Shown here: piece by piece, positions 2,757 through 30,689 of the stretch
Position numbering within the stretch: position 1 is the first letter of the stretch
How the letters are laid out: every line of letters starts with the position of its first letter
NCBI RefSeq assembly: GCF_002154695.1
Contig: NZ_MTAV01000051.1
Location: 1 to 34,242, forward strand
DNA length: 34,242 nucleotides
Direction of reading: 5' to 3'
Source of the DNA: Nostoc sp. T09
Lineage (GTDB): Bacteria; Cyanobacteriota; Cyanobacteriia; Cyanobacteriales; Nostocaceae
Notes under the pieces: generated by a model
The model's input: the letters and a program-made list of their open reading frames with translations, nothing else
The model's database searches: none
Told to the model about the DNA's origin: nothing
Translations under genes and position numbers: made by a program

Positions 2757-2757
2757 T

Positions 2758-9266: not shown

Positions 9267-9282
9267 TGTACTCAATCAGCTA

Positions 9283-9957: not shown

Positions 9958-10052
9958 ATGAAGCTCCTGCCTTTTTTGACTAATTCATTTTCTGGTGTTG
10001 TACTGCGATATCTTGAGCTATTGAAAATCTCGTTAAGGAATTTACCACAGTG

Positions 10053-11090
10053 ATGGCAAAGAAGCTGAAAGAAGCAATGCTCTATCAAAAACAGCAGGAT
10101 AGGCGTGTTTTTTGTCAACTATGTCCCCATTATTGTGTGATCGATGAGGGCAAAAGAGGCATTTGTCAGGTACGAGAAAATCAAGATGGATTGCTTTATT
10201 CGTTGGTTTATGGTCGCACAGTAACTCAAAATATAGACGGAGTTGAGAAAAAACCCTTATTTCATTTCTATCCTGGTTCAAAAACATATTCTTTAGCAAC
10301 GGCTGGGTGTAATTTTCATTGCCAATACTGTACTAATTGGCAAGTGTCCCAAATGTCAGTAGAGGAATTTGCAGAGTGTGGTGTTGAAGCTACTCCTGAG
10401 AAAATTGTCAGCACAGCAATTGAAGCGGGTTGTCAAAGTATTGCCTATACCTATGTCGAACCAACTATTTTTTTTGAATATATTCATGAAATTGCTAGTT
10501 TAGCTCACAGTTATGGTCTATTTAATTTGTTTAAAACTAACGGTTTTATGACCGCAGAAATGCTAAAAATATGTCACCCTTATTTGAATGCAGCCAATGT
10601 GGATTTAAAAGCTTTTCGAGACAAAACTTATCGGCAGATGGGAGGTAGTTTACAACCTGTCCTTGATAGCCTTAAGCTTATGAAATCGCTGGGAATTTGG
10701 TTAGAGATAACTACAGTTATTATTCCTGGAATTAACGACGAACCAGAAGAATTAGCAGATATTGCTGAATTTATTGCTCAAGAGTTAGGAATAGATGTTC
10801 CCTGGCATATTACAAGATTTTTTCCTGCTTACAAAATGGAGAATGTACAACCTACACCATTAGAAATTTTATATGAAGCCCGTGATATTGGGCTGGGAAA
10901 AGGATTGCAATATGTTTATTTTGGTAATTTTTTAGGTAGAGGAAATCAGGATACAGTTTGTCCTACTTGTAAACAATTGTTAATTCAACGTCGTGGTTTT
11001 GAGTTAATAGAAAATTTAATGCAGAGTAATCAATGCCCATTTTGTGAAACATTAATTCCTGGCGTTGGTTTATGCCATCAAGTATCCTAG
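10053..11090 (+). CDS. amrS: AmmeMemoRadiSam-type radical SAM enzyme (AmrS-like)
   Basis: The product (345 residues from ATG 10053, or 346 from the GTG just before it) is a radical SAM protein with 'CNFHCQYCTNWQVSQ' as the [4Fe-4S]/SAM motif. The N-terminal cysteine group 'CQLCPHYCVIDEGKRGICQV' is characteristic of the AmrS family, found with MEMO1-like and AMMECR1-like proteins. Further family signs are 'LFKTNGFM', 'ANVDLKAF' and 'ITTVIIPGINDEPEEL'. The C-terminus carries two CxxC pairs ('CPTC', 'CPFC'). AAGGAA at 10035-10040 is the likely ribosome site. The other two AmmeMemoRadiSam components are not nearby. Its end overlaps by 21 bases the convergent vWA-WD40 gene. Its substrate is unknown. 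Confidence 0.88.
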   Translation: MAKKLKEAMLYQKQQDRRVFCQLCPHYCVIDEGKRGICQVRENQDGLLYSLVYGRTVTQNIDGVEKKPLFHFYPGSKTYSLATAGCNFHCQYCTNWQVSQMSVEEFAECGVEATPEKIVSTAIEAGCQSIAYTYVEPTIFFEYIHEIASLAHSYGLFNLFKTNGFMTAEMLKICHPYLNAANVDLKAFRDKTYRQMGGSLQPVLDSLKLMKSLGIWLEITTVIIPGINDEPEELADIAEFIAQELGIDVPWHITRFFPAYKMENVQPTPLEILYEARDIGLGKGLQYVYFGNFLGRGNQDTVCPTCKQLLIQRRGFELIENLMQSNQCPFCETLIPGVGLCHQVS

Positions 11091-13385
11091 TATTTGCCCT
11101 AAATCTGCTGTTTGTTCGGCATCTATGTATGAATATCGTTCGCATAAATTAGCAATAGCTGGTTTTACTTGCATATTAGGATATTGCACAAATAATCCCC
11201 GCAATCCTGGCACACGAGATAGTTGTACTTCAGCACCAAACCAAGGATGAGTTAGTAATAGAATAATTGGTTCTAGTCCACTTTCATCTAGTAAATTAGT
11301 GCGGATGGCATTAGCTAATTTTAAACTTCTCAGTTCATTGGCTGGTGACATTGCGTGATATGTCCAAATTTCTACTAAATCCTGGGGATTCTCCAGTTGC
11401 AATATTTGTTCTTGCTCTTCGCCAGTGCTAATCAATACTACGGGTATGTCTGCTTGTCGTAAAAAGTTAGCCACTGCAAATGCAGCTATGCGGGTAATGG
11501 CTTCAATGGGGCCAAAAACAGGGGGACTTACATCTAAAAGTAGTACGGTAGGACGCAAACGGGGTGGTTCAGCTAGTTCGCGGGTGCGAAATAATAATTC
11601 TCCTCGTTGGTAACGATAGTTAAGTACTGTTTGGGGTAAGGCTAATTGAGTGGGAAGCAACGAACTCCAATCAGTGCGGCTGGATGTTTCTACACCACTG
11701 ACTTGACCTCGTTCTGCGCCAGGAGTATTGCCAATGGAGCGTCCTGTATGGTCGCCAAAACAAACGCGCATCCCTAATAATTGGCGTTGTAGGAAATTTA
11801 AAGCTGGTAAATTTGGGATACGGGAAAGTAACCGTAGGGGTAAAGCTGGTTCTGCGGCGACGGCTTGCTCACCTAGAATGGTGAGTAGGGATAACAGTTG
11901 CTCATCAATTAGTTTAGCTGCTTCTTGTAATAGAGAGATAGGCGGAGGTGGGGCTTGTGGTTCGATGGGTTCTCCTGCTAATCCAGCTTGAAGGGCGTTG
12001 CTAATTTCTTTGGGTGATATACCCGATGGTGGTTCCCAGCCAGGGAAGGGAATTTTATGAAGTAGTAAAGCAACTAATCCAATGCGAGCAGGTGCAGACC
12101 AACGTAGGGCGATTAATTCAGAAATTTCGGTATTTTTTGCTAGTTGAGCGAGGGGATTATCTACGGGTTGACCACCTGTGAGCTTGAGGAGGTCTTGGAT
12201 GAGGGATAATGGGGCATAAATTCCCAGTCGGTGCATTTGGGCTAGGGCTGTGGGGAGTAGGCGGAAGTGACTGGGTAAAGGCGGAGTAGCATTTGGATCA
12301 AAGGTAGTGACCGTTTGGTTGGGTAATAGGTGGCGAACGTCCCAGAGATAGAAATAGTCATTTAAATGGCTAGAGGCAAGGAATGCACCATCAGGTGACC
12401 AAGCAACTCTTACAGCGTATGCACCTGCATCTAGGCATGAGAACTTCTCTAGTTCTTTGCCAGTTCGAGTATCCCATATCCGAATTGTACTGTCATTAGA
12501 TGTTGAAGCAAGCAAGTATCCATTGGGTGACCAGACAACACATTTGACTGACCCTAAATGATTGTTACAGTGCAGAAGTTGAGAGTGAGTCTCAAAATTC
12601 CAAACGTATATACTAGCGTTTGTGTATCCCTCACAACCAAATGCTACATATTTGCCATTTGGTGACCACTGAAGAGTGAATACATTTTGATAACCATTCA
12701 AGGAAGTTACTTCTTCTCCTGTCTTGGCATTCCATATTCTAGAAGGCATACTAGCCCAACTGCCAGAAGCAATAAATTGTCCATCGGGTGACCAATCTAC
12801 TGCCCATGTTGAAGCACCACAATTAAGAGTTCGCAGACATTGAGCGCTATTGATATCCCAAATACAAATAAAATTGTCATTAAAAGCAGATGCTAGAAGT
12901 TTCCCATCAGGTGACCAGCTTAATTTGGGAACTTGTGTAGTATGACCGTGAAAGCGTTTGAGGCACACTCCAGTGGTAGCATCCCAAATACGTACAATGG
13001 CATCGTTCGAGCCAGTTGCAAGTAAATTTTCCTGGGGGGAGCAGGCAATATCCTTGATTACAGAACAGCCTTGATCGGTACTTTGCCAGATGGGTAAACC
13101 TGTTTGCAAGTCGTAACAGTGCAGTTGACCCTGAGAGTTTCCCGTAACTATGCTACGCCCACCTGGGAGCAGGGCAACTCCACGACCAGAAGTATTAGAT
13201 TGACCATAACTATGAGAGTAAAACCTATTACTACTTGTATCAGATTCATTTCTACCAATTATCCCCAAGCAGTGTCCTGTTGCCCCAGATAAATAAGGAA
13301 CCCATAAAGGACGAGTTATTTGTTCTACTTTTATCCCTACAGTTGCAGCTTGACGAGTGAGGTAGGTTTCTATTGTTTCTCTCAT
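11070..13385 (-). CDS. WD40-vWA fusion protein of an FtsH-vWA-MoxR ternary system
   Basis: This 771-residue protein has seven or so WD40 blades at about residues 65-350 ('WSPDGKLLASAFND', 'TIRIWDTRTGK'), a helical linker (370-600) and a C-terminal von Willebrand A domain (about 612-771). In the vWA domain the metal site is degenerate: Asp618 and Ser620 in 'LLLDVSPPV' are kept, but the third MIDAS position is Pro622, and the usual 'TDG' loop reads 'THPWFG'. MoxR ATPases are known to act with vWA partners, the vWA binding substrates that the ATPase remodels. Here the partners would be 17916-19088 and 20886-22868. It is the last gene of the minus-strand cluster, 16 bases after 13402-15027. AGGAGT precedes the ATG. 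Confidence 0.85.
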   Translation of the reverse strand: MRETIETYLTRQAATVGIKVEQITRPLWVPYLSGATGHCLGIIGRNESDTSSNRFYSHSYGQSNTSGRGVALLPGGRSIVTGNSQGQLHCYDLQTGLPIWQSTDQGCSVIKDIACSPQENLLATGSNDAIVRIWDATTGVCLKRFHGHTTQVPKLSWSPDGKLLASAFNDNFICIWDINSAQCLRTLNCGASTWAVDWSPDGQFIASGSWASMPSRIWNAKTGEEVTSLNGYQNVFTLQWSPNGKYVAFGCEGYTNASIYVWNFETHSQLLHCNNHLGSVKCVVWSPNGYLLASTSNDSTIRIWDTRTGKELEKFSCLDAGAYAVRVAWSPDGAFLASSHLNDYFYLWDVRHLLPNQTVTTFDPNATPPLPSHFRLLPTALAQMHRLGIYAPLSLIQDLLKLTGGQPVDNPLAQLAKNTEISELIALRWSAPARIGLVALLLHKIPFPGWEPPSGISPKEISNALQAGLAGEPIEPQAPPPPISLLQEAAKLIDEQLLSLLTILGEQAVAAEPALPLRLLSRIPNLPALNFLQRQLLGMRVCFGDHTGRSIGNTPGAERGQVSGVETSSRTDWSSLLPTQLALPQTVLNYRYQRGELLFRTRELAEPPRLRPTVLLLDVSPPVFGPIEAITRIAAFAVANFLRQADIPVVLISTGEEQEQILQLENPQDLVEIWTYHAMSPANELRSLKLANAIRTNLLDESGLEPIILLLTHPWFGAEVQLSRVPGLRGLFVQYPNMQVKPAIANLCERYSYIDAEQTADLGQILGYLMA

Positions 13386-13401
13386 TACTAATTACTCCTA
13401 C

Positions 13402-15027
13402 TTACTTACCACCCATTGCTATGCGTTCATACAAGCGCCCTGCTTGTCCTGGATAACCTGCTTTTTCTAGCAACGCGGCTGCTTTTACCAAATCTCCTTG
13501 CAATTCTGCTTGTTGCGCTTGCTCTAAAATTCCTACGCCTTCAACACGCTTTTTTTGCTTAGGCTTAAAAATACTTGCTATTCCTTTCTTTGTTTCTTGC
13601 GGCTGTAACTGCTGAGAAATACTATTGAGCAATTTCTTGGCTTGTGGTGAAAGTCCTTGTTGAACTTTTGGTGCTTCTCCTACCCACAGCACCCAAGCAG
13701 GGGTGATTTGTGCTGTGTTGAAGCGATAGCTTTGGTTTCTAGCTACAACAACGGCTGTTTGAGAATTAAGCTGAAAACGCTGTTGACGAGCTGCGTCGGG
13801 TAAAGGTGGATAAAAATCCATACCTAGTTCTATATAAAGCGCACCTGGACCAATGCAAACTAAAGGAATGCCTAAGGGGATTTGGGCTGGTAAGCCTCCA
13901 GGAGCAGTTAATAGGTGGTATCCTAGCCCTGGTAAGAGAAATGCCATTTCTCCTACAGGTCGCCCCATGAGTAGGTTACGTAGCCAGGATAGTTCAATAT
14001 CATCGAGTAAAATTGCATCAACTTGTCTACCTGTTCCGGGGCGAGGGACAAGTTGCACGGGGATAGGTGCTGGCGGTTGAGCTTTAGGAAGGGAAGGTGA
14101 TTGAGCTTGGGGAAGTTGAGGTGCGTCTAACAGTAGTGAACCATCTATTTGATTCCCGGTGATGGTTAGTCGCCAATTACCTACATCTGCGGTTCCTAAT
14201 ACCCAAATTTCTGATTCGGGGATCATTGGCTCAATTACACTAGGAGCTAAGGTTAAACGCTGACGCACATCTACTAAAATTCTGCCTCTGTCAGTATCGG
14301 TTGAGGCAGCTGCTACTGTGGTGTAAGGTAAGCTGGTTAAACGATGAACTAAAGCGGCAGGAATGGTACGGTTTCCTGTAGCTCGCAGTTGTATCAGTAA
14401 AACCCCTGAGGCTTGTTGTTGCTGATTATTTAGGGGTTGTTGCAGGGCTGGGGTTAGGGTTACTTCTAAACCTAAAGCTGTAGCACGGCGCAATATCCAG
14501 CTACCGAGAGAACCAGGGGTAATTACATCGAGAACATTAGCCCCGCGATAGCGGCTGGGAGGAAGGCTGGCTGATGCGAGTAATTCTGCTAAATCAACAA
14601 TAGCCCAGGAACTAACATCTACTTTTTCTGTATTGGTATTGTCTGCGGGTAAATCTCCTGATAAAGACAAGGCTACCCATTGCTGATTGTGACGGATAAA
14701 GGGACGACCCCCGGCTGTCCAGATGAGGGGGGTGATGGGTTGGTGAGCCACGGCTACTTCTACCCACCAAGTTCCCTGGGGACTACGACGAACAACGGCG
14801 GTTTCTGATAACCTGGTGCCGAAAACTGAGCCGAGAAAAGCCAAAACACTGTTGACGCTACGGAAACGCCCACCTGTTGATGTGTCTAATGAAGGTTGGG
14901 GAGTTGGTGTTTTTGGTGTTGGTGGTGCTGGGGTTGGCGTTTGGTTTTTTACAGGGGGGGTTGGTTGTGATGGAGGCTTTTCCTCTGGGGTTATCCGCCG
15001 AATTGTAAACTTTGGGGGGTCTGCCAT
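13402..15027 (-). CDS. Unassigned ternary-system partner protein with a Pro-rich N-terminus
   Basis: This 541-residue protein is not one I can name. Residues 14-47 are a proline/threonine-rich linker. A large beta-rich middle follows ('TWWVEVAVAHQPITPLIW', 'WAIVDLAELLASASLPPSRY', 'LLMGRPVGEMAFLLPGLGYH'). The last ~40 residues ('QQAELQGDLVKAAALLEKAG' then 'GRLYERIA') resemble a single TPR-like repeat, similar to the N-terminal repeats of the TPR-FGE proteins next door. Its place directly upstream of the vWA gene suggests it is one of the conserved accessory subunits seen in FtsH-vWA-MoxR systems (the 'fvmX' kinds, from memory). It has no membrane segments and no recognisable catalytic motif. 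Confidence 0.75.
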   Translation of the reverse strand: MADPPKFTIRRITPEEKPPSQPTPPVKNQTPTPAPPTPKTPTPQPSLDTSTGGRFRSVNSVLAFLGSVFGTRLSETAVVRRSPQGTWWVEVAVAHQPITPLIWTAGGRPFIRHNQQWVALSLSGDLPADNTNTEKVDVSSWAIVDLAELLASASLPPSRYRGANVLDVITPGSLGSWILRRATALGLEVTLTPALQQPLNNQQQQASGVLLIQLRATGNRTIPAALVHRLTSLPYTTVAAASTDTDRGRILVDVRQRLTLAPSVIEPMIPESEIWVLGTADVGNWRLTITGNQIDGSLLLDAPQLPQAQSPSLPKAQPPAPIPVQLVPRPGTGRQVDAILLDDIELSWLRNLLMGRPVGEMAFLLPGLGYHLLTAPGGLPAQIPLGIPLVCIGPGALYIELGMDFYPPLPDAARQQRFQLNSQTAVVVARNQSYRFNTAQITPAWVLWVGEAPKVQQGLSPQAKKLLNSISQQLQPQETKKGIASIFKPKQKKRVEGVGILEQAQQAELQGDLVKAAALLEKAGYPGQAGRLYERIAMGGK

Positions 15028-15246
15028 GCCTACTATAAAAGATGAGACATTTTTCTACTTTAGCCAGAGAATTACTCCAACTAGCTTTTATTTACGAGAA
15101 ATTCTATACATTTATTTTAGTGGTCAACCACGAAAGTTTTGGTAAATTAATTTTCCCTGCTTTATTTAGTCTTAGTAATGTAGCGAAAATCCAAAAAAAA
15201 ATTTTTAAGAAGTGCAAAAGGGGAAAAAGAGGAAAAGAGTAAAGGG

Positions 15247-16755
15247 TTAAGTCCTCCCAACCACGCCACAAACTCGAAAACCAACATCATCGTTGAAGCT
15301 GATGCGCCAGGTATCGTCGAAGCGGTACGCAGAGCGGCAATACCCAGAATTATTGAGCCACGAGCCGCCCCGCAGTACAGGAGAATAATTATTATTACTA
15401 TTTTTTAGCACAAGGACGGAAGCGTTTGGCGTTCCTTCATAGTTGTTATGCATTGGGTCTGCACACAATTCCCAGACATTCCCATGCATATCATATATGC
15501 CAAAGCTGTTGGGGGGAAAACTGCCGACAGGGGTCGTTTGTTCTCGATATTCTCCTGCTGGTTCTTCGGCATAGGTATAGCTAGCAGCATCATAATTAGC
15601 TAAATCACCGCTAATAGTCTCTCCATAGTGAAATGGTGTGGTGGTTCCCGCACGGCAGGCATATTCCCATTCGGCTTCGCTCGGTAATCTGTATTCTTTG
15701 CCTGTGGCTTTCGATAACCTGGCACAAAATTCTCTTGCATCTTTCCAGAAGACACACTCTACTGGGTGATTCTCCCCTTTGAATATTGAAGGGTCTGGGT
15801 TTAAATCTCGCTCAACTTTGGGCAGCTTTGCCACAGCACGCCATTGTGCTTGGGTGACTTGATATTTGCCCATGTAGAACGGTTGCACTGTCACTTGATG
15901 TTGCGGTCTTTCTCTGTTGAGGCTATTGTCTGGCGAACCCATCATAAAGGTTCCACCTGGTATGTAGACCATTTCTAACTCAATGCCATTCCCCAAGGGT
16001 TCACTGAAATATTGAGCTTGTTGCCAAACTCGGTTGATGATTTCTCCTTTGCTGTTGACAGTCACTACCTCAAATTCATCGGTGGCTAATTCATCTACTG
16101 GTTCTTGTTTGGGTACTCCTGTGGCATCTTTGAATGTGGTAATTGCCCATTGTTCCCATTGTTGGCAGATGTTGGGCATCTTTGCTTTATATGCTGTGGC
16201 GTATATCAGGGCTGTTAAGTCTGGTCTGGTTAATACTTGGGCTATTTTTAATGCCCATTGATATAAGTGCTGTTGTGATGGGGTCAGCAGTTTGAGTAAT
16301 GGATTTAATTGTTCTCTTAGTATGAGGGCGCTTTCAGCTTTTTTATTACTGCTGGCTTGGCAACGGGCGGTAATTAACTGTATTTCTAAGGCTTGAATTT
16401 CTGTTTGGGCTACAAAGTTGGTTAATTGTGCCTGAACCCGATATATCTGCTGCAGGCTATCTACATATATCCAGGCGGCTTTGAGAGTGTCGTTGGCTTG
16501 GAGATAGCAGTCGGCGGCGGCTTGGGGTTGTTGAGCTTTTTGGTAGTAATGGGCAGCTTTTGACCAGTTTTGGGTTTGTTGGTAGCAATGGGCGGCTTTT
16601 GCCCAGTTCCCTAGTTGTTCGTAGGTGATGGCGGCTTGGTGGTATTCTCCGATTTGTTCCCAAAGGCGACAGGCTTCTGCTAGCCATCCCGCTTGCTGGT
16701 AGCAGGCTGCGGCTTTTTGCAGGAGTTGTTTTGTTTCTTGGGGGGATGGGTTCAC
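15247..16755 (-). CDS. TPR-FGE (C-type lectin fold) protein 1, candidate DGR target
   Basis: The 502-residue product has TPR-like helical repeats at about 8-110 ('AAACYQQAGWLAEACRLWEQ'), a helical middle, and a formylglycine-generating-enzyme-like domain at about 258-498 ('EMVYIPGGTFMMGSP', 'YRLPSEAEWEYACRAGTTTP', 'IYDMHGNVWELCAD', 'LRGGSW'). This fold is used both by true FGE enzymes and by ligand-binding C-type lectin proteins, including targets of diversity-generating retroelements. The last ~40 residues differ at nearly every codon from the paralog at 19384-20889, while the flanking parts are well conserved. The start is GTG, overlapping the preceding stop by four bases. The likely role is target recognition, not sulfatase maturation. 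Confidence 0.87.
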   Translation of the reverse strand: MNPSPQETKQLLQKAAACYQQAGWLAEACRLWEQIGEYHQAAITYEQLGNWAKAAHCYQQTQNWSKAAHYYQKAQQPQAAADCYLQANDTLKAAWIYVDSLQQIYRVQAQLTNFVAQTEIQALEIQLITARCQASSNKKAESALILREQLNPLLKLLTPSQQHLYQWALKIAQVLTRPDLTALIYATAYKAKMPNICQQWEQWAITTFKDATGVPKQEPVDELATDEFEVVTVNSKGEIINRVWQQAQYFSEPLGNGIELEMVYIPGGTFMMGSPDNSLNRERPQHQVTVQPFYMGKYQVTQAQWRAVAKLPKVERDLNPDPSIFKGENHPVECVFWKDAREFCARLSKATGKEYRLPSEAEWEYACRAGTTTPFHYGETISGDLANYDAASYTYAEEPAGEYREQTTPVGSFPPNSFGIYDMHGNVWELCADPMHNNYEGTPNASVLVLKNSNNNYSPVLRGGSWLNNSGYCRSAYRFDDTWRISFNDDVGFRVCGVVGRT

Positions 16756-17033
16756 TCTGTTTGTCTTTGTTTTTGGTCTTCAATTTCAGGGGAAATCAAG
16801 GGTTCTTCAATATTGGGTTGTTCGAGAATGACTTCACTATCTGTTGCCAAGCCTGGAAATGCTTCCACTATATGAGGGTTACGCTCAATGATATTACCCA
16901 ATTCTGCGGCAATGCGATCGTGTTCGCGGTTGTGCTCTGCTTCGGATAAACGCATGGTTCCTTCATCGGTTACCTCGAATATTTCTACTTCGCCAGTTAC
17001 TTGATTAAAGCGAAATCTGACTTTGACATCCAT
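16752..17033 (-). CDS. Small acidic protein of the ternary system
   Basis: This 93-residue protein opens with two beta strands ('VKVRFRFNQVTGEVEIFEVT'), continues with a helix ('EAEHNREHDRIAAELGNII') and ends in a disordered acidic tail. It has no known catalytic motif. Small proteins of this kind sit next to MoxR genes in FtsH-type ternary systems and in the cyanobacterial DUF2997-like group, from memory, but I cannot assign it firmly. It is translationally coupled to the following TPR-FGE gene by a 4-base overlap. Confidence 0.7.
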   Translation of the reverse strand: MDVKVRFRFNQVTGEVEIFEVTDEGTMRLSEAEHNREHDRIAAELGNIIERNPHIVEAFPGLATDSEVILEQPNIEEPLISPEIEDQKQRQTE

Positions 17034-17068
17034 AGGAATTGGTGGTTTTGGATTGGTGGTGATATGTG

Positions 17069-17093
17069 TTGGGTTGCGCTGCGCTTAACCCAA
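17069..17093. repeat. Inverted repeat TTGGGTT...AACCCAA
   Basis: TTGGGTT (17069-17075) and AACCCAA (17087-17093) flank GCGCTGCGCTT in the 83-base gap between two minus-strand genes. From memory it looks like a widespread Nostoc dispersed repeat. It could also fold in the mRNA and modulate expression of the downstream genes. Confidence 0.5.
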
Positions 17094-17116
17094 ACTACTT
17101 TTTGAGTAAAAATGCT

Positions 17117-17893: not shown

Positions 17894-17915
17894 AAATTTT
17901 GAGGATTAATGTAAT

Positions 17916-22868: not shown

Positions 22869-22900
22869 AACCCCTGATTAAATAGCTTTAACTATAACTG

Positions 22901-23758
22901 TCAAACACTGCCTAACATTCTTTGAGACAAATTAAATAATTTAATGCCCTCACGATAAGCATAACCAAGGTAGCGACGCTGACGCAGTTGATTGACATCT
23001 GCTCGCTCAATTGCCCATAGAGGTTGCCACCAATTAGCTATTGACAAGGCATCTCGCAATTCTTCTTCATTGGCAGCTGTTTGGCGATCGCTAATGATAC
23101 TATCAGCAGTCCTGACTTGGTTAATTACCTCTTGCTGATGATAAATCATTGCGGTTTCATACACATCGAGGACAAAAGTCGCTTTTCCAAGACGCAGACG
23201 ATCCAATAGTTGCGTTCTCCAATCGCGGATTTTGATATCTACGGTTGGTTTTGCTAGATGTAAAGTCAGGGACAATTTAGCTTCTGGGTTTTGCAATAGT
23301 TGCAATCCTACATTCACAGCTTGATTTTCTTGTCCTGGGATTGGTCGATTCAACACAGTAGTTAAGGGCGATAACAGTCTGCAATCATCTGCAATCTCAT
23401 CTTTGAGAAATGATAAAGCGGGGGTAATTAAACCATGACGTACTACCCAATCCCCTGAACAAGATGGTGCTGGAACTGCTTTAAGCAAGACGCGGGCTAA
23501 CTGGGGATTGGCTGTACCTAAAGCTGCGGCAATTATAATGTTATCTAAACTGATGGGACGATGATCTCCTAAAGGAGGCATTGACCATCGCAACTTAGCC
23601 GCGGTAACGATGCTGAGTTGTTGTAGGGTTTGAACAAGTTTAGCAGAAGGACGCTCCAACTTTTCTATGCCAGATAAATCACCCTGGGGTATTACTCCTG
23701 AGACTTCCTGGTTAGTCGCCCACTCAATTACTTGTAATGCAGTATCAATGGCGCTCAT
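22901..23758 (-). CDS. Unassigned protein between the JAMM peptidase and the AAA+ ATPase
   Basis: I do not recognise this 285-residue protein. It is mostly helical, with 'LDNIIIAAALGTANPQLARVLLKAV' and a C-terminal 'LRQRRYLGYAYREGIKLFNLSQRML'. It has no membrane segment and no catalytic motif I can identify. Its start overlaps the end of the JAMM gene by 14 bases, and the AAA+ gene begins 32 bases after its stop, so it is tied to both halves of the cluster and may be the physical adaptor between them. That is inference from gene order. Confidence 0.75.
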   Translation of the reverse strand: MSAIDTALQVIEWATNQEVSGVIPQGDLSGIEKLERPSAKLVQTLQQLSIVTAAKLRWSMPPLGDHRPISLDNIIIAAALGTANPQLARVLLKAVPAPSCSGDWVVRHGLITPALSFLKDEIADDCRLLSPLTTVLNRPIPGQENQAVNVGLQLLQNPEAKLSLTLHLAKPTVDIKIRDWRTQLLDRLRLGKATFVLDVYETAMIYHQQEVINQVRTADSIISDRQTAANEEELRDALSIANWWQPLWAIERADVNQLRQRRYLGYAYREGIKLFNLSQRMLGSV

Positions 23759-24929
23759 CTATCACCCAATATGGACAAAGAACCATTTTGTTTCCTTGAC
23801 GGACATAAAAACGCAAGGTGCGCTGATTCCCATCTAAGTTAATCAACCCTGCTAATTGCCAAGGAATAGTAAAAGTGCTAAAGTGCAACTCTACATCAAT
23901 AGAGGATAAGCCAAAAGTTGGTGTAGCGGGAAACAAGTGGGTGTGATACCAACCCAAAAGACGTTCTCCAGAGTGACTTTGATTTAATGTTCGTTTCACC
24001 TCAACAAAAGAATCACCTGTAAAAGTCAAATGCAGAAATGAAGCGCCTGTATGTTGAGCCGTTAAAGCATTGCTGACTTCTACTAAATAAGTATTCTCTT
24101 CGTCACCATCTCGATAAACGTTGCCAACCAAAAAGCCACCCTCTTCAACTTTTTGAGAAAGGGGGCGTTGATGACATAGATTTTGGTAAAGCGATCGTGC
24201 TAAAACAATTTTGACTGGTGCTTTGTTTATTTGGTCTTGAGATGTAGTAATTTGGGGGGCAAAATTTTTTTCCTGTGTGATTCTCTCCCCGGTTTCTGGC
24301 GCTGTTAATGATTCGACTAAAACAGGATTGATTTGATTTCCAAATATTGGTATTTCCCCAGCTGTTTGACCAGATGTAATACCAAAATCAGCTAAAGTTT
24401 TCAGGGGAGGTTCTGCTTCTGCTAAACGCCGAATCTGAAATTTTGGTTTTTCCCCATGTGGATGTGGATAAGGAATGATCTCTGCATTGCCTTCCCTTGC
24501 TGGTGTGGGATGCAATGTTGAGACTCTAGGGTTTAACCGGAATGCTGAAATTTGGGGCATTCCCGGTATATCGACACGAAAACCCCACCAAATTTCCTCT
24601 GGGTACTGATTACTCAATTTCGTTCTTAGGTTTTTGGTTAAAACGTCATAAAGACGATGGGGGTGCTGATAGATTAAAAAGTTTCCTTGATACACCTTGA
24701 TGTAAGTATAGCCGAAATCTGGAACCAGATTTTCGACTACAGGGGATTCTATGGGCAGAGGTTCTTCTGGTACTTGCAGAAGTATGACCAGGATAGATTT
24801 TAAAAGTAAAGAACGTCCGAGTAAGCTCTCTAGGGATTCTTGTACAATAGGTAAAAACGGCATTGTGCCAAAGAACTTGCGGTCTGCTCCTCGGTATAAT
24901 TCAATCCTATAGTCATCCCGTTCCTTCAT
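23745..24929 (-). CDS. JAMM/MPN-domain isopeptidase (deubiquitinase-like)
   Basis: The C-terminal domain (about 240-394) has the complete JAMM zinc-protease set: Glu263 in 'EEGGFLVGN', His329 and His331 in 'GWYHTH', then Ser342 and Asp345 in 'LSSIDVE', with the usual 10-residue spacing. JAMM enzymes cleave isopeptide bonds or trim ubiquitin-like proteins before activation. The N-terminal ~160 residues form a separate, unidentified domain ('YTYIKVYQGNFLIYQHPHRL'). The gene overlaps the EAD-Ubl-E2 gene by 4 bases (ATGA), so E2 and peptidase are made together. Predicted cytosolic. Catalysis is likely, given that all ligands are present; the substrate is unknown. Confidence 0.9.
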   Translation of the reverse strand: MKERDDYRIELYRGADRKFFGTMPFLPIVQESLESLLGRSLLLKSILVILLQVPEEPLPIESPVVENLVPDFGYTYIKVYQGNFLIYQHPHRLYDVLTKNLRTKLSNQYPEEIWWGFRVDIPGMPQISAFRLNPRVSTLHPTPAREGNAEIIPYPHPHGEKPKFQIRRLAEAEPPLKTLADFGITSGQTAGEIPIFGNQINPVLVESLTAPETGERITQEKNFAPQITTSQDQINKAPVKIVLARSLYQNLCHQRPLSQKVEEGGFLVGNVYRDGDEENTYLVEVSNALTAQHTGASFLHLTFTGDSFVEVKRTLNQSHSGERLLGWYHTHLFPATPTFGLSSIDVELHFSTFTIPWQLAGLINLDGNQRTLRFYVRQGNKMVLCPYWVIDERH

Positions 24930-26374
24930 TCGCTCAACCGTTTAATATTGAGTTTAGGGGGGGTTTGCATCTCATCGATTAATTTACGCAGGATACACTG
25001 TCCACCTCGCTGTTCAATGGCAATTTGACCTTGATCAGAAATTGCCCATTCTTGTGCTTCCTTGTTATACCCCTCGTCTAAAGCATAATTCTGGTAGCTG
25101 GCAATATCAATGAGCAACTGACACAGTTTAGCAAAATCTAATCCTGGGCGATAGCGATCGCCTAAATCCCCTAGGCAAACTAAACCAGTTTGAGGTTCTA
25201 TATTGGGATGGAATATAGGAGTTTGCCAAAAAGCTTGGGGTGCTTGCATTGGGAATGTTCCAGGTAGCATTAGATAAACTTCATGCTCATCAATGGCTTG
25301 AGGTTCTCCACCTGATTGCAGAGGTGGTGCAAATCCTGGGGCGTTGAACTTTAATAAGTAATCAGTAGGAACTAGATGGTTATTGGCAGAAACTTGAAAC
25401 CCAGGATGAGCTTGAGCATAAGCCATTATTTGGTTTCTAGCACGAGCTAGGGCTTCTTGGCGCAGTTGGGGATGGATTGCTCCCGCAGTTGCTTCTGGTG
25501 CAACACTGAGGGTATCCTCTTCTTGAATATTAGCTTCGTGCAATGTTTGGTCATGAGCTAAACGTTCTGTTGAGCTATCCTCACTTACCCTGTCAACTAC
25601 AACTCTTCGTCCTCTACCTCTACTATCTTGGAACATTCTGGGGTCATAGGCTTCTGACATCACCCCTTTAGCGATTTCTCCTACTGTAGTATCGGAACTA
25701 ACATCACAAACTTCAAACCTTGCTTGATCTGGTCCCTCAACAAATATGCGACTGATGAGATAAGGTTGAGGATCTTCTGTTAATACGCTTACTTGTACCT
25801 GGTTTTGTCCAGATTGGAGTATTGTTTGCAGTCCACCTGCAAAAGATGCAACTGCTTGCGAACTACAGTTATTGAGTCCTAGTAATACAACGCCATTACC
25901 GGAAAATCTCAATGTGATATTTTCGGGTAAAATGCTTTGTCCTGGGGCGATAACTCCTGCTGAGGCTAGAACATTGTTGGCATCATCTCGACCTTGGATC
26001 AATATGGTGAATAAGTTGCTGTTACTTGCTTGTGGTGCTTGCGGTGTGGAACTTGGCTGATTATTGTTAGGGTTGGGGGGGTAAGTGCGATCGCTACGAT
26101 ATTGATTAAAAATACGGTTGGATTGATACAAATCGGCGGCTTCGTCAATCAGTGCTTGTAAATCAGTTCCTTGTGGTAAGATACCATTTGTAATTTGCTG
26201 GCAAATTTCTCGCCAATAGCCTAGAGTACTACCGTTATTGGGAAATTGAGAACGCATTCCAGCAGGAAAGTCAATTAAATCCAGCAGAAGATTAGCCATA
26301 GTCTCATCATGAAATAAGACTGCAAATTCATTCAATATTCCATTTTTGATTAAGTCCTTTAACGTTAGAGCCAT
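24926..26374 (-). CDS. EAD-Ubl-E2 (UBC-like) fusion protein
   Basis: Residues 1-95 form an effector-associated domain ('LNEFAVLFHDETMANLLLDL', 'GYWREICQQITNG', 'LIDEAADLYQSNRIF'). Residues ~120-215 are beta-rich and unidentified. Residues ~216-295 look ubiquitin-like ('DTTVGEIAKGV', 'DQTLHEANIQEEDTLSVAP'). Residues ~300-450 are an E2 fold with 'PGTFPMQAPQAFW', 'FHPNIEPQTG' and the catalytic Cys400 in 'GLVCLGD', matching the HPNI-x-G-x-VCL pattern of ubiquitin-conjugating enzymes. E2 proteins accept a Ubl from E1 on this cysteine and pass it to targets. The EAD is closely similar to the one ending the CHAT protein encoded just upstream, so the two are expected to meet through it. Confidence 0.88.
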   Translation of the reverse strand: MALTLKDLIKNGILNEFAVLFHDETMANLLLDLIDFPAGMRSQFPNNGSTLGYWREICQQITNGILPQGTDLQALIDEAADLYQSNRIFNQYRSDRTYPPNPNNNQPSSTPQAPQASNSNLFTILIQGRDDANNVLASAGVIAPGQSILPENITLRFSGNGVVLLGLNNCSSQAVASFAGGLQTILQSGQNQVQVSVLTEDPQPYLISRIFVEGPDQARFEVCDVSSDTTVGEIAKGVMSEAYDPRMFQDSRGRGRRVVVDRVSEDSSTERLAHDQTLHEANIQEEDTLSVAPEATAGAIHPQLRQEALARARNQIMAYAQAHPGFQVSANNHLVPTDYLLKFNAPGFAPPLQSGGEPQAIDEHEVYLMLPGTFPMQAPQAFWQTPIFHPNIEPQTGLVCLGDLGDRYRPGLDFAKLCQLLIDIASYQNYALDEGYNKEAQEWAISDQGQIAIEQRGGQCILRKLIDEMQTPPKLNIKRLSE

Positions 26375-26441
26375 TTTTTAATTACTTAGAAAAATTATCA
26401 AATAATTTAAAATTCGATTAATCATAAATTTAATAATCTGT

Positions 26442-28118
26442 TTAATATTGACTACGATGTTTCTGAAAAATCGGATTAGCCGGAAAAAACTCCGCAGCTG
26501 CATCCACCAGTAATTGTAAGTTATTTCCACTGGGTAAGGCACCATATTGAATTTGCTTACAAATCTCTTGCCAATAACCCAAGGGTGTACCTTGTTGCGG
26601 AAAAATTGGACGAAGATGACCAGGAAATTCTATAGTGTCTAACAACATATCCGCTATCTCTTTATTATTAAATAATGTTACTAACTCTTGAAGAATTTTA
26701 TTTCTTATTAAAGCTTGTAAGTTCATTTTGCCTGGTTTGATCTTGAGATCGGCAGAAATATTAGTTTTTTCAACTCGAGTGGGGAGGTGTACTGTCTGCG
26801 AACTATCTGGCTGTTCAAACAACTGTCCTCCTTCATTATCATGCCAGCGCAGATATAAAACAGGACGATACCACTGATTTCCTTCGATATCCATTGCAAT
26901 TCTTGCTTGCCTTACAGCCGCAGAGAGAGAAAGTTTCTGCCCTAAAGCACGGTAGAACTGTTCTGCAAAATTTTTCGCTGCCTTAACACTCACAGAATAT
27001 TGCATAGCTACCACTGCGGGAATGCTGTGATGAATTAACTTTTGAGCAGTACCGTTAAATAAAGACTCCCCCGCAACTGCCATACCAGACTGACAGGCGC
27101 TAAGCACTACAACAGCTAAACTTCCATGATTAGTATTTTGATAACTTGGTGTTAAATTCTGTAATGTAGCTCCGAGTTTTGCGGCACTAACATAATCCGG
27201 TTGACCTTTTTCATCTGCAAATACAAGATATCCTTGAGCAGGGGGCAAATTCTCTCCACATAATTTATTCTGACATTTTTGGGGTGTGATTCCAGGGTGG
27301 ATATTTCCACATTTGAGGCATTTCTTGCCATATAAGCCATGACCATCAAAATGTAATATGTGTGGTTGCTGTTCTCCTCGATGTTCAGTTAAATATTTTT
27401 GCAAAGCATTGAAAGTAGGAATACCCCCAATTTCTGCGGCTAAATCTGTAAGATGGATATAGCCTTCTTGACTAGCTAACTCTAATCCTGCTGTTATTGC
27501 TTGGCGATCTCCCTGTCCCAATTGTTTCATGTCTTGAGCAGTATCAAAAGCTTCTGAACAGACGAGTAAAACATTAACCTTGTTAACTAAAGGTAGATTA
27601 GGCGCAAAATCATTGTAGGCAATGTAACGAGAAAAGCTAACCTTATGCCAAGCGAGAAATCGTGTCCCATCATGCAACAATTCCCAAGGGTAATCCGCAG
27701 CACGATTAGTTCCTACAGAATCAGGTTCAAAACTAAATTGAATGTGTAGTTCGTCTCCACTTGCTCTTTGCAATGCTGCCTTGAGAATTTCTTCAGATTT
27801 TTCACCTTTTGGAAACAAAGATTGGTAAAGTTGTTGACCAAGCTTAGGCAGTATAACTGAGATTGAATGAAAGTGTGTTTCCTCCTGATTCAGAAACCCT
27901 GCCTGAAGCAGCCAATTAGCCTCGTCTGAATTAAAGCGTTGAGGATTAAATTCAGTGTTTCCGTGCGATGTAATTTCTATTACTCTGATTAGGGTTGTTC
28001 GGTAATCAATTTCTCCATCAAAAAAAGGAAGCGTTGTTTTTGTCGTACCATGTTGGGTATTAATGACTTCAAACTCACGGTCATTGTGGGGGTTAAGAAA
28101 AAACCCTATAACTTCCAT
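26442..28118 (-). CDS. CHAT caspase-like protease with zinc-ribbon insert and C-terminal EAD
   Basis: This 558-residue protein contains a CHAT (caspase HetF-associated) domain with catalytic His260 in 'ILHFDGHGLY' and Cys342 in 'VVVLSACQSGMA'. Directly after the histidine, four cysteines (267, 270, 282, 287) form a probable zinc knuckle. The N-terminal ~180 residues include 'DYPWELLHDGTRFLAWHKVS', typical of the region before CHAT. Residues ~463-558 are an effector-associated domain. CHAT proteases act in bacterial immunity and programmed death by cutting host or toxin proteins. The E2 fusion gene begins 67 bases downstream and shares the EAD. Confidence 0.9.
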   Translation of the reverse strand: MEVIGFFLNPHNDREFEVINTQHGTTKTTLPFFDGEIDYRTTLIRVIEITSHGNTEFNPQRFNSDEANWLLQAGFLNQEETHFHSISVILPKLGQQLYQSLFPKGEKSEEILKAALQRASGDELHIQFSFEPDSVGTNRAADYPWELLHDGTRFLAWHKVSFSRYIAYNDFAPNLPLVNKVNVLLVCSEAFDTAQDMKQLGQGDRQAITAGLELASQEGYIHLTDLAAEIGGIPTFNALQKYLTEHRGEQQPHILHFDGHGLYGKKCLKCGNIHPGITPQKCQNKLCGENLPPAQGYLVFADEKGQPDYVSAAKLGATLQNLTPSYQNTNHGSLAVVVLSACQSGMAVAGESLFNGTAQKLIHHSIPAVVAMQYSVSVKAAKNFAEQFYRALGQKLSLSAAVRQARIAMDIEGNQWYRPVLYLRWHDNEGGQLFEQPDSSQTVHLPTRVEKTNISADLKIKPGKMNLQALIRNKILQELVTLFNNKEIADMLLDTIEFPGHLRPIFPQQGTPLGYWQEICKQIQYGALPSGNNLQLLVDAAAEFFPANPIFQKHRSQY

Positions 28119-28162
28119 AATTTCTCATGTTCAACGCAACTAAATGTTAAAATCACTAAATA

Positions 28163-28546
28163 TTAGAATCCTTGTCCAGCCTCATGAGAAGGATTTTTCA
28201 GTAGTTCAATTGAAGCTTTTATAATTTCTTCCTTTTTTTCTGGGTTACGTTGTAAATAGAGTGCGATAAGTTTTTGTTTATCAACTAAGGGAGATAAGGT
28301 TACTTTAACTTTATGCATATTGTCTTTGCTAAATTTATCTGCTAATTCACCACTAAAAAGTGACATCACATTAATTTTTATTTTGCCTCCATCCTGCCGC
28401 TGAACTGTAACCTGGAGTTCTAACTCTACTGAATCCACACTCAGAAGAGGAACATCTTCTTCTTCCGCAGGTGATGTGAGCAATTCTTGTTTAACCTGTT
28501 CGATTAACTCTGCAAGACCAATAGGATTATTTTGATTGTTAGTCAT
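28163..28546 (-). CDS. Trypco2-like (trypsin co-occurring) small protein
   Basis: This 127-residue protein opens 'IGLAELIEQVKQELLTSPAE', then 'VDSVELELQVTVQRQDGGKI', then 'SKDNMHKVKVTLSPLVD'. This is the pattern of the Trypco2 domain described with bacterial conflict systems that also carry trypsin-like, CHAT and EAD proteins. The helix-strand-strand core is followed by a helical tail. It has no catalytic motif and is thought to be an adaptor or inhibitory partner. It lies 44 bases before the CHAT gene, so a direct functional pairing with that protease is plausible. Assignment is from memory of the family pattern. Confidence 0.75.
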   Translation of the reverse strand: MTNNQNNPIGLAELIEQVKQELLTSPAEEEDVPLLSVDSVELELQVTVQRQDGGKIKINVMSLFSGELADKFSKDNMHKVKVTLSPLVDKQKLIALYLQRNPEKKEEIIKASIELLKNPSHEAGQGF

Positions 28547-28661
28547 GATTCAGGATAAAAAATTTGACTTTTGTTTTTTTGCTTAATTTTTAGATCAAAC
28601 CTTAAATAACTTAAATAATTGTAAATAAAGTTTTATACTAATACCTAAAATTAAGCTGTCA

Positions 28662-29723
28662 TCATTCTAACTCAAACCATTGCCAACCTTTCATTGTTTT
28701 CACCGTAAGTATTTCACGGGGAGGAATACCCAAATCTGCAAGCTTCACCAGATCCGGAACTTCATCTAATTCAATGGTTGTTCTAGGTCTTAAAGGTTGT
28801 TGGCACTGAGGGCATAAATTTATAGAGGGAAGTCCCCAAAGAATTTCCTGAAAATTGCAATGCGAACATTCAACAAGCTTTTGCACTGGTTCCCAAACAA
28901 GGGGTACTGCTGATTTAGGAAGGAGACTACGCAACTTTTGCATAGTCTCCTGAGAACTAACACTAATCTTGCTGACAAAATCTATTGATGTATGCAAAGG
29001 ACATTCAGAATCTCGTACCTGTGGAATAACTACTGTAGTTCCTCTGGAACTATCAATCCTTAAAGTGCCAGCAGGACAAGTCAGGTTCATCAAAAAACGG
29101 ATCGCGATGATGCCCATCCAAGTTCCTACTAAAGCAGATGATGGCACTGCTGATCCCACAGAATCCTCAGGTCTGGTATCAAGACAACTCCAGGGAACAT
29201 CAGCTATGCTACGCTCTTCTGGGGTGAGGCTACATCCATAGCATGGGTCATCTGGATCTAAGTAAGGCCGCACTTCTCCACCCCAAGAATGAGTTCCACC
29301 ATCAATGTAGGGAGTTTGTACCAACTTACAACGGCCAGTCAGCTGTAAACGAGCCGAACGACTATCTAAACAACTAATAACTAAATCAACATCTCGGATT
29401 TCTCCTAGACCCACACCGTGAATTAATGGAAGCGATCGCGTTTCAACTGCAAGTGTAGGATTTAATTCTCTTAAAGCTGTGGCTGCGGCTTCTACCTTAA
29501 AATTACCAATATCTGACTGTCGAAATAACACCGTTCTACTCAGATTAGATTCTTCTATCCAGTCTGGATCACACAAAAGCAAGCTACCAATTCCAGACAT
29601 AGCCAGAATTCTTGCAACCTCATTACCTAGTGCCCCCATACCAAAAATAATTACCTTTGCATTTGCAAGCTGTTGCTGGTTCCAACCAGGCATTAACTCA
29701 TGTCGAGCATAACGACTACTCAT
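28662..29723 (-). CDS. E1-like ubiquitin-activating (ThiF/MoeB-fold) enzyme
   Basis: This 353-residue protein begins with the ThiF/E1 signature: 'YARHELMPGWNQQQLANAKV', the nucleotide loop 'GMGALGNEV' (28-36), 'LLLCDPDWIEESNLSR' and 'RQSDIGNFKVEAA'. Candidate catalytic cysteines are in 'VPWSCLDTRPED' (Cys180). A C-terminal zinc ribbon (Cys286, Cys289, Cys304, Cys307) and an extra tail follow. E1 enzymes adenylate the C-terminal glycine of a Ubl and pass it to E2, here presumably the protein from 24926-26374. Its ATG overlaps the end of the RING-like gene by 8 bases. Confidence 0.92.
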   Translation of the reverse strand: MSSRYARHELMPGWNQQQLANAKVIIFGMGALGNEVARILAMSGIGSLLLCDPDWIEESNLSRTVLFRQSDIGNFKVEAAATALRELNPTLAVETRSLPLIHGVGLGEIRDVDLVISCLDSRSARLQLTGRCKLVQTPYIDGGTHSWGGEVRPYLDPDDPCYGCSLTPEERSIADVPWSCLDTRPEDSVGSAVPSSALVGTWMGIIAIRFLMNLTCPAGTLRIDSSRGTTVVIPQVRDSECPLHTSIDFVSKISVSSQETMQKLRSLLPKSAVPLVWEPVQKLVECSHCNFQEILWGLPSINLCPQCQQPLRPRTTIELDEVPDLVKLADLGIPPREILTVKTMKGWQWFELE

Positions 29724-30309
29724 AAAGTTTTTTTGATGTAACAGGACAGTAATATTGTCTATTAGCTCCTGGATTCCATAGCTCTAAACAATTCAGACCA
29801 TGCATTAGATCTCGATGAACAGCTATCTTGCACAAAGGTTGATGAGGACTACAAGGACAAATCACAACCTGATCATTCTGCCGTAAGGTATGGCTACAAA
29901 CTACACAAGTATGACGTTGAAAACCTGCAAATGGTGGGGCTAGTAATTGGTGAACAGCATCTAAGCGTACTACAGGTAAACCTTGGGGAAGAGGCCATGC
30001 TGTATCCAAACCCATAAAGAAAGCTGATGTTTCTTGCGAAAATTCCCACTTACTGACATCAGCTTTGTTACCTTGTAGCAAAGCACTATCATGCTTAACA
30101 GTACCATCTTCAGCAATATATACTTCCTCACCCAGTCGAAAGGTATGAGAGCAAATCGGACAGTAGTGATGTAACCAATAAGAATTTAATGTGGTTATCC
30201 CTTTACCGCCTTTTTGAATTGCAGTGTTATTGACTGGGTCTGTAGCAATTAGAACTCCCTTGTCAAATTCGCTATGCAAATCCAGTTGTCTTTTGGTTTG
30301 TTCTGTCAT
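29716..30309 (-). CDS. RING-like double zinc-finger protein (E3-like candidate)
   Basis: The 197-residue protein has two Cys/His clusters. The first, 'HHYCPICSHTFRLGEEVYI' (Cys50, Cys53), is followed by a linker. The second starts at Cys135-x2-Cys138 ('HTCVVCSHTLRQNDQVVICP') and continues with Cys151, Cys153, Cys160, His165, His170 and Cys174, a treble-clef/RING-like spacing. Bacterial RING-like proteins are known beside E1/E2/JAMM genes and are proposed ubiquitin-ligase analogues. I use ATG 30309 (GAGG just upstream); the preceding GTG would add one residue. Ligase activity is inference. Confidence 0.8.
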   Translation of the reverse strand: MTEQTKRQLDLHSEFDKGVLIATDPVNNTAIQKGGKGITTLNSYWLHHYCPICSHTFRLGEEVYIAEDGTVKHDSALLQGNKADVSKWEFSQETSAFFMGLDTAWPLPQGLPVVRLDAVHQLLAPPFAGFQRHTCVVCSHTLRQNDQVVICPCSPHQPLCKIAVHRDLMHGLNCLELWNPGANRQYYCPVTSKKLYE

Positions 30310-30452
30310 CACACCTCAAATTAAGGTCAAATGCTTTGAAAAATTAAATTATGTGGATAAAGATAATTGAACTTAGCATTTATTCAAACTGTTTTGCTAC
30401 ATCAACTCAAATTTCTAAAGCTAATAATTATCAAATTTTAATATCAATTAAC

Positions 30453-30689
30453 TTAACCACATAGTATCCTTTCGATTTCATCTGCACCTAATTGAGCCAT
30501 TAATTCTTCTATAAGGTAAGCGTACATACTATCACCTAAGATATCGACTCCTTCATTATTCATGTTAATTCGCACACGGATTTTTTTTTGCTCAGAACTA
30601 AGAAGATAGTCTTCTTCGGTGATTAAATCTGGCAAATAAGAAACAAAGCTTGTTTTGACAGGTTGATTAGAAATTGAATTTTCTTCCAT
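30453..30689 (-). CDS. Small protein ending in Cys-Gly, first gene of the cluster
   Basis: This 78-residue protein has a disordered N-terminus, two predicted strands ('KKIRVRINMNNEGVDILGD') and a C-terminal helix ending 'IERILCG'. It is the most upstream member of the minus-strand cluster, 140 bases before the RING-like gene. A terminal glycine next to an E1 gene raises the possibility that it is the modifier or a tagged adaptor, but the fold seems too short for a full beta-grasp and there is no Gly-Gly. Equally it may be an unrelated small partner. No strong ribosome site is seen. Confidence 0.6.
   Translation of the reverse strand: MEENSISNQPVKTSFVSYLPDLITEEDYLLSSEQKKIRVRINMNNEGVDILGDSMYAYLIEELMAQLGADEIERILCG

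Follow-up and report, generated by a model that had tools for sequence, protein, structure and literature searches.

A predicted conflict system of the complex FtsH ternary type within an fdxN interruption element of Nostoc sp. T09

The window analyzed here is a whole contig (C251, 34,242 bases) of the genome of Nostoc sp. T09 (G000; 8.25 Mb, 270 contigs; the labels G, L and C denote the genomes, loci and contigs compared). Between positions 10050 and 30689, it encompasses a predicted conflict system in which a ternary half, with an FtsH-type AAA+ ATPase, a MoxR ATPase and a protein with a putative vWA-like region, adjoins a ubiquitin-like (Ubl) conjugation half that includes a caspase-like CHAT protease. 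The matches to the Pfam families fvmX1, X2, X3, X7, fvmJAB_N, fvmYukDl_N, bpMoxR and fvmRadSAM-pep identify a "complex" FtsH ternary system, an assignment that, judged by profile comparison, is secure for the family and most of the anatomy; Pfam also names the E2 domain, CHAT-EAD1, Trypco2, ThiF, WD40, FtsH-type AAA and FGE. An earlier annotation made from the letters of the window (the sequence-only reading) considered the union of the two halves unusual. However, the union of FtsH, MoxR and vWA with a Ubl tri-ligase, JAB and an EAD1-caspase has already been described by Kaur et al. 2020 (eLife; PMC7159879), who call it the "more complex variant" among FtsH ternary systems.

The gene run and its two halves

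The run consists of 16 minus-strand genes, rather than the 14 counted in the sequence-only reading, which gave the extent of the minus-strand run correctly but left out the convergent radical-SAM gene. Fifteen of these genes are open reading frames of at least 80 amino acids (an overlapping frame, 16457-16783, is left out of the count), and the sixteenth, the short peptide gene, was spotted via a relative in Moorena. By open reading frame coordinates, five joins overlap by 4-14 bp and the remaining ones are gaps of less than 300 bp, in agreement with the short gaps and overlaps described before. The JAB and fvmX1 genes overlap at the very join of the Ubl half with the ternary half.

The enzymes of the Ubl half retain their motifs, as judged by a scan for the generally known catalytic motifs. 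The E1-like protein contains the GMGALG glycine loop, and a search of PDB sequences identifies UBA7, ThiF and ubiquitin E1 as its best solved relatives (7.8e-26). The E2 protein contains the HPN...C motif and its E2 domain has solved relatives at 4.6e-8 in the same kind of search. The YukDl_N and E2 domains of this protein pass the Pfam cut-off; its N-terminal EAD1, which has no Pfam match, is 48% identical over 92 amino acids to the C-terminal EAD1 of the CHAT protein, so that the two proteins carry paired EAD1 domains, and the EAD1 of the counterpart in the genome G252, discussed below, is above the cut-off. The JAB peptidase contains the motif HTH...SSID, which follows the pattern H-x-H...S-x-x-D; the JAB models themselves stay below their Pfam cut-offs (20.6 vs 22.5 and 19.9 vs 25 bits), and the JAB profile yields a best E of 0.57 among PDB sequences. 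The putative effector, the CHAT protein, has the motifs HFDGHG and SACQSG, with the His and the Cys; it matches the HetF model weakly and only in part (31.4 bits vs the cut-off of 1200) and has no match among PDB sequences up to an E of 1. Profile comparison thus bears out the E1-like, E2 and JAMM proteins of the sequence-only reading, as well as its Trypco2-like and CHAT-EAD proteins (Table 1); over the whole run, the matches to fvmX1, fvmX2, bpMoxR and fvmJAB_N lie far beyond chance. The RING-like protein is a candidate, and its Cys/His pattern is retained in the 69% identical G252 protein.

The motifs of both ATPases of the ternary half, named as AAA+ and MoxR from the beginning, are likewise intact. 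The bpMoxR protein contains the P-loop GPPGTAKT, which fits the GxxxTAKS-like pattern of MoxR in FtsH ternary systems. The FtsH-type ATPase has one intact P-loop at residue 409 and a Walker B motif at 464; because the motif scan finds no HEXXH protease motif, this protein is taken to be a remodeller rather than a protease. Pfam does not recognize in it the inactive N-terminal AAA copy that is part of the complex FtsH ternary system. The last gene of the run encodes a WD40 propeller, as had been read, and a C-terminal part that is common to the ClpN protein of the G252 locus. The accompanying vWA assignment did not fare as well: of 57 hits to the window protein, the 25 listed include no vWA family, and none is found in the G252 ClpN protein. 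The vWA domains in these systems are described as highly divergent (PMC7159879).

The radical-SAM gene was also considered as an ordinary host gene. This possibility was rejected: an 82% identical counterpart lies in the equivalent place beside the G252 locus, whereas the relatives in same-genus genomes (7 of the 7 searched) are only 22-31% identical, and therefore the gene belongs to the run. The fvmRadSAM-pep product ends with an identical Cys-Gly in all three copies seen (window, G252 and Moorena). The option that this peptide is a free Ubl was set aside; in Moorena, it adjoins fvmX1 with no Ubl gene visible, and therefore seems tied to the radical-SAM part. A peptide, a radical-SAM enzyme and a metallopeptidase are partners in most complex systems, but not obligatory (PMC7159879); the families listed for the 17 scanned window products include no metallopeptidase besides JAB.

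Table 1. Features of the window
Feature	Coordinates	Strand	Evidence or remark
nifB	5324-6784		left of locus
5' part of fdxN, interrupted, ends early	6910..7227	+
Left direct repeat TATTCTCAGAA, 11 bp, fdxN interruption point	7198..7208	+	partner G000:C258:45049-45059
Left element genes	7390..9957	+	helix-turn-helix 7390-7725; 7764-8693; 8901-9266; 9283-9957
Unit holding the entire locus, radical SAM and peptide included	9959..31431		blastn vs G405 slot
Radical-SAM enzyme, convergent with run	10050..11090	+	PF04055 7.9e-22
WD40 propeller + divergent vWA-like C-terminal region	11070..13385	-	WD40 PF00400 3.9e-38
fvmX7	13402..15027	-	PF20005 2.1e-50
TPR-FGE protein 1 (FGE1), candidate sensor	15247..16755	-	PF03781 4.5e-58
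fvmX3	16752..17033	-	PF19999 1.1e-29
fvmX2	17117..17893	-	PF20000 3e-78
bpMoxR AAA+	17916..19088	-	PF20030 2.1e-79
TPR-FGE protein 2 (FGE2), candidate sensor	19384..20889	-	PF03781 8.8e-59
FtsH-type AAA+ ATPase	20886..22868	-	PF00004 7.8e-43
fvmX1	22901..23758	-	PF19998 2.8e-120
JAB/JAMM peptidase with fvmJAB_N domain	23745..24929	-	PF20011 4.7e-63
EAD1 - YukD-like/Ubl - E2 fusion	24926..26374	-	PF20006 4.3e-25; PF00179 7.9e-9
CHAT (caspase-like) protease + C-terminal EAD1, putative effector	26442..28118	-	PF12770 1.5e-23; PF19955 4.6e-9
Trypco2 protein	28163..28546	-	PF19631 4.4e-18
E1-like adenylating enzyme (ThiF), C-terminal CxxC...CxxC	28662..29723	-	PF00899 5.2e-44
RING-like zinc protein, candidate E3, 198 aa	29716..30312	-	Prok-RING_1 E 0.0018, below cut-off
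fvmRadSAM-pep, FtsH-ternary-associated peptide, 78 aa, ends ...ERILCG, first gene of run	30453..30689	-	PF20007 2.8e-36
Right element gene, 293 aa	31659-32540	+
Large serine recombinase, Resolvase/Recombinase domains, runs off contig end	32797-34242	+

A sister locus and the fdxN element

The two halves co-occur. Both fvmX1, from the ternary half, and fvmJAB_N, from the Ubl half, are found in the same 2 of the 388 genomes of the class, G000 and G252 (each search listed 22 genome labels, identical in both). At the level of the family, fvmX1 is present in 2 of 217 genomes, a weak fvmX1-like fragment from G484 (E 4.7e-4, three stops) being dropped from the counts as degraded, and it is absent from all 7 same-genus genomes listed. 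Carriage on plasmids was considered and rejected: neither fvmX1 nor the E2 protein has a match in 72,556 plasmid records; MoxR matches 79 of these records and, in the two inspected (L060 and L061), is the sole window protein matched.

In G252, the order is peptide, RING-like protein, E1, effector region, EAD1-Ubl-E2, JAB, fvmX1, FtsH, FGE, MoxR, fvmX2, fvmX3, FGE, FGE, fvmX7, vWA protein and radical SAM. The backbone order is the same as in the window, and the four conjugation proteins are 69-78% identical between the two loci. The differences lie in the modules: four FGE genes (one of these within the effector region) vs two in the window; ClpN in the vWA protein where the window has WD40; no Trypco2 counterpart found in the G252 locus; and an EAD8-trypsin together with an EAD8-EAD1 protein where the window has CHAT-EAD1. 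The EAD1 of the EAD8-EAD1 protein shares 49% identity with the EAD1 on the E2 protein of G252, and the two EAD8 domains, although both above the Pfam cut-off, are only 26% identical to each other. G252 thus looks like a three-step chain, E2-EAD1/EAD1-EAD8/EAD8-protease, and the window like a direct EAD1-EAD1 pair. Retention of the adaptor along with a swap of the protease is what is expected if the EADs recruit effectors, and a sister locus that shares the backbone but has exchanged effector and propeller modules makes such recruitment testable. Among the other conflict-type genes that neighbor the G252 locus (L005, L003 1-4263 and L117; G252:C3 2.711-2.743 Mb) are a CHAT/AAA_35 protein and a NACHT N-terminal/WD40 protein, and several large proteins near this locus share, by eye, a similar N-terminal stretch.

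A single further locus was returned by a scan of genome contigs. This is a 5.8 kb contig from Moorena (L059) that encodes an EAD1/VMAP-M1/FGE protein, the peptide, fvmX1 and FtsH, with no Ubl gene visible along its length, and probably represents the simpler type of FtsH system.

The sequence context places the locus as cargo within an fdxN interruption element, of which the window shows the left 27 kb. The fdxN gene is continuous in 2 of the 7 same-genus genomes (G403 and G404) and cut at the same place in the other 5 (G399, G400, G401, G402 and G405); in all five, the 3' part of fdxN and nifS lie elsewhere, and in G000 they are on contig C258. Joining the G000 flanks at the TATTCTCAGAA repeat yields a 117-codon fdxN frame that ends like the intact G404 gene. 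Contig C258 also encodes a 520-amino-acid large serine recombinase with Resolvase, Recombinase and zinc-ribbon domains, 479-484 of whose 520 residues are identical to those of the G399, G400, G401 and G405 elements. From its place and by analogy with PMC4874684, this enzyme is probably XisF, and C251 and C258 would be the two ends of one element. Relatives of the genes at 7764-8693 and 8901-9957 are present in the G400, G401 and G405 elements, those of the helix-turn-helix gene in G401 only, and those of the 293-amino-acid gene in G400 and G405; none of the shared left and right element genes has a relative in the G399 element.

The comparison with the G405 slot delimits the cargo: in a blastn alignment, the match to the window stops at 9958 and resumes at 31432, with 385 bp unmatched in G405. 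Whether this unit was gained in the window or lost in G405, the whole locus occupies one slot, and its two halves behaved together as a unit. The fdxN gene of G252 is intact, with nifS beside it, and the conflict locus of that genome is located elsewhere. Shared occurrence in the same two genomes, the common backbone order and the single slot support the view that both halves form one system, Moorena L059 being the one exception.

A few side observations concern the surroundings. The stretch 8901-9957 contains two open reading frames (121 and 224 amino acids) where G405, G400 and G401 have one gene of 351, 361 and 327 amino acids, respectively, and the gene is probably broken in the window. 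Left of nifB (2481-3153), a small antitoxin-like gene overlaps, by eye, a PIN-like toxin gene. On C258, the interval from the right fdxN border to the recombinase (L107, approximately 7600-12300) contains what we take to be a mycosporine (sunscreen) biosynthesis-like cluster.

Variable tails of the FGE proteins

The four FGE paralogs of G252 are 85-89% identical overall but differ strongly in a tail of 24 codons flanked by GGSW and VGFRV. By codon position, the variable sites number 17/11/4 in these tail codons vs 63/45/163 in the other 480 (Fisher p 2e-7). Among the 24 third positions of the tail, 20 are invariant, and C or T is the last base of most variable codons, the pattern that a diversity-generating retroelement (DGR) would be expected to leave by mutating the adenines of AAC/AAT codons. 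The sequence beyond the stop codon is conserved too. When compared with the template of a different DGR, from G402 (six tests, p values uncorrected), the four G252 tails yield p values of 0.0005-0.005, and FGE1 from the window departs from it at 18 of 33 A sites and 22 of 81 others (p 0.009), a weakly DGR-like pattern. Most likely, the G252 tails descend from DGR targets whose retroelement was lost or lies in unseen sequence. For the window pair, the kinship with the G252 tails and the pattern in FGE1 weakly suggest the same descent. DGR mutagenesis of targets has been reported for other ternary systems (Dore et al. 2024; PMC10907252). The G252 tails would thus tie a Ubl/FtsH system to DGR-style diversification, which the FtsH section of PMC7159879, so far as available, does not mention.

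A separate observation from G000 concerns a reverse transcriptase (L019 8166-9221, on C243), presumably retron-like given the motif QGSPASP; at a distance of about 1 kb lies, as seen by eye, a nifH-like gene that carries an N-terminal extension.

Proposed working, alternatives and known systems

Following the scheme of Kaur et al. and the module swap in G252, we infer a course of events for the locus. The TPR-FGE proteins, with lectin-like tails of apparent DGR-target descent, would sense an invader. The MoxR and FtsH-type ATPases, the vWA-propeller protein and fvmX1, X2, X3 and X7 would hold the complex silent and remodel it upon sensing. The JAB peptidase would free an EAD1-tagged Ubl that the E1, E2 and RING-like proteins would attach to target proteins; EAD1-EAD1 contact would then draw the CHAT protease to the tagged targets, and the ensuing cleavage could lead to containment or death of the infected cell. 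The Trypco2 protein and the radical-SAM-modified peptide might be regulators or further effectors. We consider the chances evenly balanced that 10050-30689, as a complex-type FtsH ternary system carried by the fdxN element, works in this way. Of the single pathway of defence or cell death proposed in the sequence-only reading, the single system is supported and the defence or cell-death function is a prediction.

Several observations weigh against this proposal. In the Ubl half, the YukD-like, E2 and EAD1 parts of the proposed EAD-Ubl-E2 fusion stand, but the Ubl fold is putative, the Pfam score in G252 being 14.5 bits vs a cut-off of 25.4; the match of the RING-like protein to Prok-RING_1 is weak (18.6 bits vs 29.1), and the RING, too, is putative. 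The structure models of these two proteins, each built on an alignment of 2 rows, have mean pLDDT (predicted local distance difference test) scores of 33.1 and 28.4, respectively, and are not used. The DxSxS motif of the metal ion-dependent adhesion site (MIDAS) was not found in the C-terminal region of the window WD40 protein, and the vWA is putative. PADLOC yields no match for 6 of the 10 proteins scanned, including fvmX1, JAB, the E2 protein and fvmX7, and a literature search that most subscription papers fall outside found no experiment on any FtsH ternary system.

The sensor part meets similar difficulties. In the window, the variable sites of the two FGE genes are not skewed by codon position (11/7/11 in 24 codons vs 82/64/148 in 472; p 0.24), and FGE2 departs from the G402 template at 15 of 33 A sites and 29 of 81 others (p 0.40), with no excess at A. 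Thus, of the two variable-looking FGE proteins of the sequence-only reading, both are FGE proteins, and the DGR-like pattern is seen in G252, weak in FGE1 and absent in FGE2. In a crude count for G252, variable columns with at least one A amount to 25 of 40 in the tail vs 138 of 237 in the unaligned upstream stretch, no clear excess, although this stretch is not a fair control. None of the RVT_1 hits in G000 (0 of 7) or G252 (0 of 4) is a DGR-type reverse transcriptase, defined by the (I/V/L)GxxxSQ motif that we take to mark these enzymes and that is present in G401 and G402. Searched with a template-repeat pattern, G252 gives no match and G000 only FGE1 itself; this absence is weak evidence because the pattern, which finds the template in G402, finds nothing in G401 despite the DGR-type reverse transcriptase there. 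An active DGR in G000 and G252, for which neither a reverse transcriptase of this type nor a template was found, is not supported.

Among the alternatives, the one closest to the proposed mechanism is that the Ubl is neither released nor conjugated, the EAD1-Ubl-E2 protein serving as a scaffold while E1 and E2 act on the Cys-Gly peptide or a host protein. The Ubl is indeed embedded in a longer protein, and the linker to E2 (..SVAPEATAGAI..) is identical in G000 and G252, but no cleavage site stands out in it because most of the protein (78% identical as a whole) is equally conserved; the small Cys-Gly protein encoded by the first gene of the run would provide the substrate. Against this, the peptide adjoins fvmX1 in the Moorena contig and the intact motif of JAB fits Ubl release, and we regard the scaffold as rather unlikely. 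Instead of defence, the system could serve the filament in controlling protein quality or in cell differentiation, as might be suspected from the position within an fdxN element adjoining nif genes and from the weak HetF match of the CHAT protein. A pair of AAA+ ATPases together with a Ubl cascade and a protease would also suit regulated proteolysis. The rarity and patchy distribution of the locus, as with fvmX1 in the same-genus genomes, are hard to square with a core developmental role, and effector and propeller modules are exchanged between loci; this explanation appears unlikely.

The setting in the element bears on two further alternatives. Caspase-like effectors can kill cells, and a locus that is cargo of an integrated element might be an addiction or maintenance module that kills the cells losing the element. 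Heterocysts would then die from the programmed loss of the element, and the G252 locus lies outside an intact fdxN, which makes such a module very unlikely. That two unrelated systems are neighbors by chance was already disfavoured and has an almost negligible probability: FtsH systems of a simpler kind that lack Ubl genes are described (PMC7159879), and Moorena L059 may be one, but the genes overlap across the JAB-fvmX1 join, the order recurs in G252, and both halves occur in the same 2 of 388 genomes.

If the proposed defence system holds, its placement prompts one to ask whether a multicellular bacterium clears its terminally differentiated cells of an immune or suicide system. Elements of the fdxN kind are excised at heterocyst formation, and the available text of PMC4874684 calls their advantage or disadvantage a mystery and has no word beginning with 'defen'. 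If the element of Nostoc sp. T09 is excised likewise, a diversifying Ubl cell-death system would be kept in vegetative cells and deleted in heterocysts, a cell-type-restricted immunity that we put forward as a tentative possibility, on the doubtful side. Terminal heterocysts would be left unprotected or, alternatively, freed from suicide while fixing nitrogen. Speaking against loss in heterocysts, xisH and xisI, both needed for excision in Nostoc 7120 (PMC4874684) and present in the G400 and G401 elements, were not found in C251 or in 19 kb of C258, the join of the two contigs being unseen. Within the limits given above, the literature search found no report of defence cargo in heterocyst elements.

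Compared with the DGR-diversified targets of other ternary systems (PMC10907252), the FGE proteins share the FGE/CLec domain, the variable tail and a MoxR ATPase nearby, but belong to an FtsH/Ubl type rather than a VMAP or NACHT system, and the DGR reverse transcriptase was not found in G000 and G252. The element resembles known fdxN interruption elements in the split of fdxN at a direct repeat and in the XisF-like serine recombinase, and differs from them in its cargo, a conflict system, and in that xisH and xisI were not found in the parts examined (PMC4874684). The best PADLOC matches of the window E1 are models named E1-E2. In the Ubl operons of CBASS (cyclic oligonucleotide-based antiphage signaling systems), a JAB-type peptidase is reportedly encoded as well, as in the window, and E1 and E2 are said to be fused, vs separate proteins here. 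The window further differs in that no cyclase is among the families matched and that its Ubl is fused to EAD1 and E2; the likeness lies in the E1-E2 type chemistry and the anti-phage setting, deduced here from the genes (PMC10097602).

The closest likeness is to the complex FtsH ternary system, in which a propeller-vWA protein, an EAD1-Ubl-E2 protein and an EAD1 caspase-like effector are accompanied by a full Ubl conjugation set, with JAB, E1 and RING as separate genes, and by helical proteins restricted to FtsH ternary systems (PMC7159879). The window shares with this type MoxR, the propeller protein with its putative vWA region, the FtsH-type ATPase, the fvmX proteins, the peptide and radical SAM in one half and JAB, E1, a candidate RING-like protein, EAD1-Ubl-E2 and the EAD1-caspase in the other; a metallopeptidase other than JAB is not among the families shown for its products. 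FtsH systems are described as rare in cyanobacteria, with a split of roughly 30/70 between the simple and complex types, and FGE as occurring almost exclusively in cyanobacterial VMAP systems, along with iSTAND systems (PMC7159879). New to our knowledge are the link of FGE and DGR in an FtsH-type system, the adaptor chain of G252, the complete outline of the unit and the finding that it resides in an fdxN element. The window departs from the complex type as described in PMC7159879 in holding two TPR-FGE genes, which the available FtsH section of that paper does not mention, a Trypco2 protein and a location within an fdxN element.

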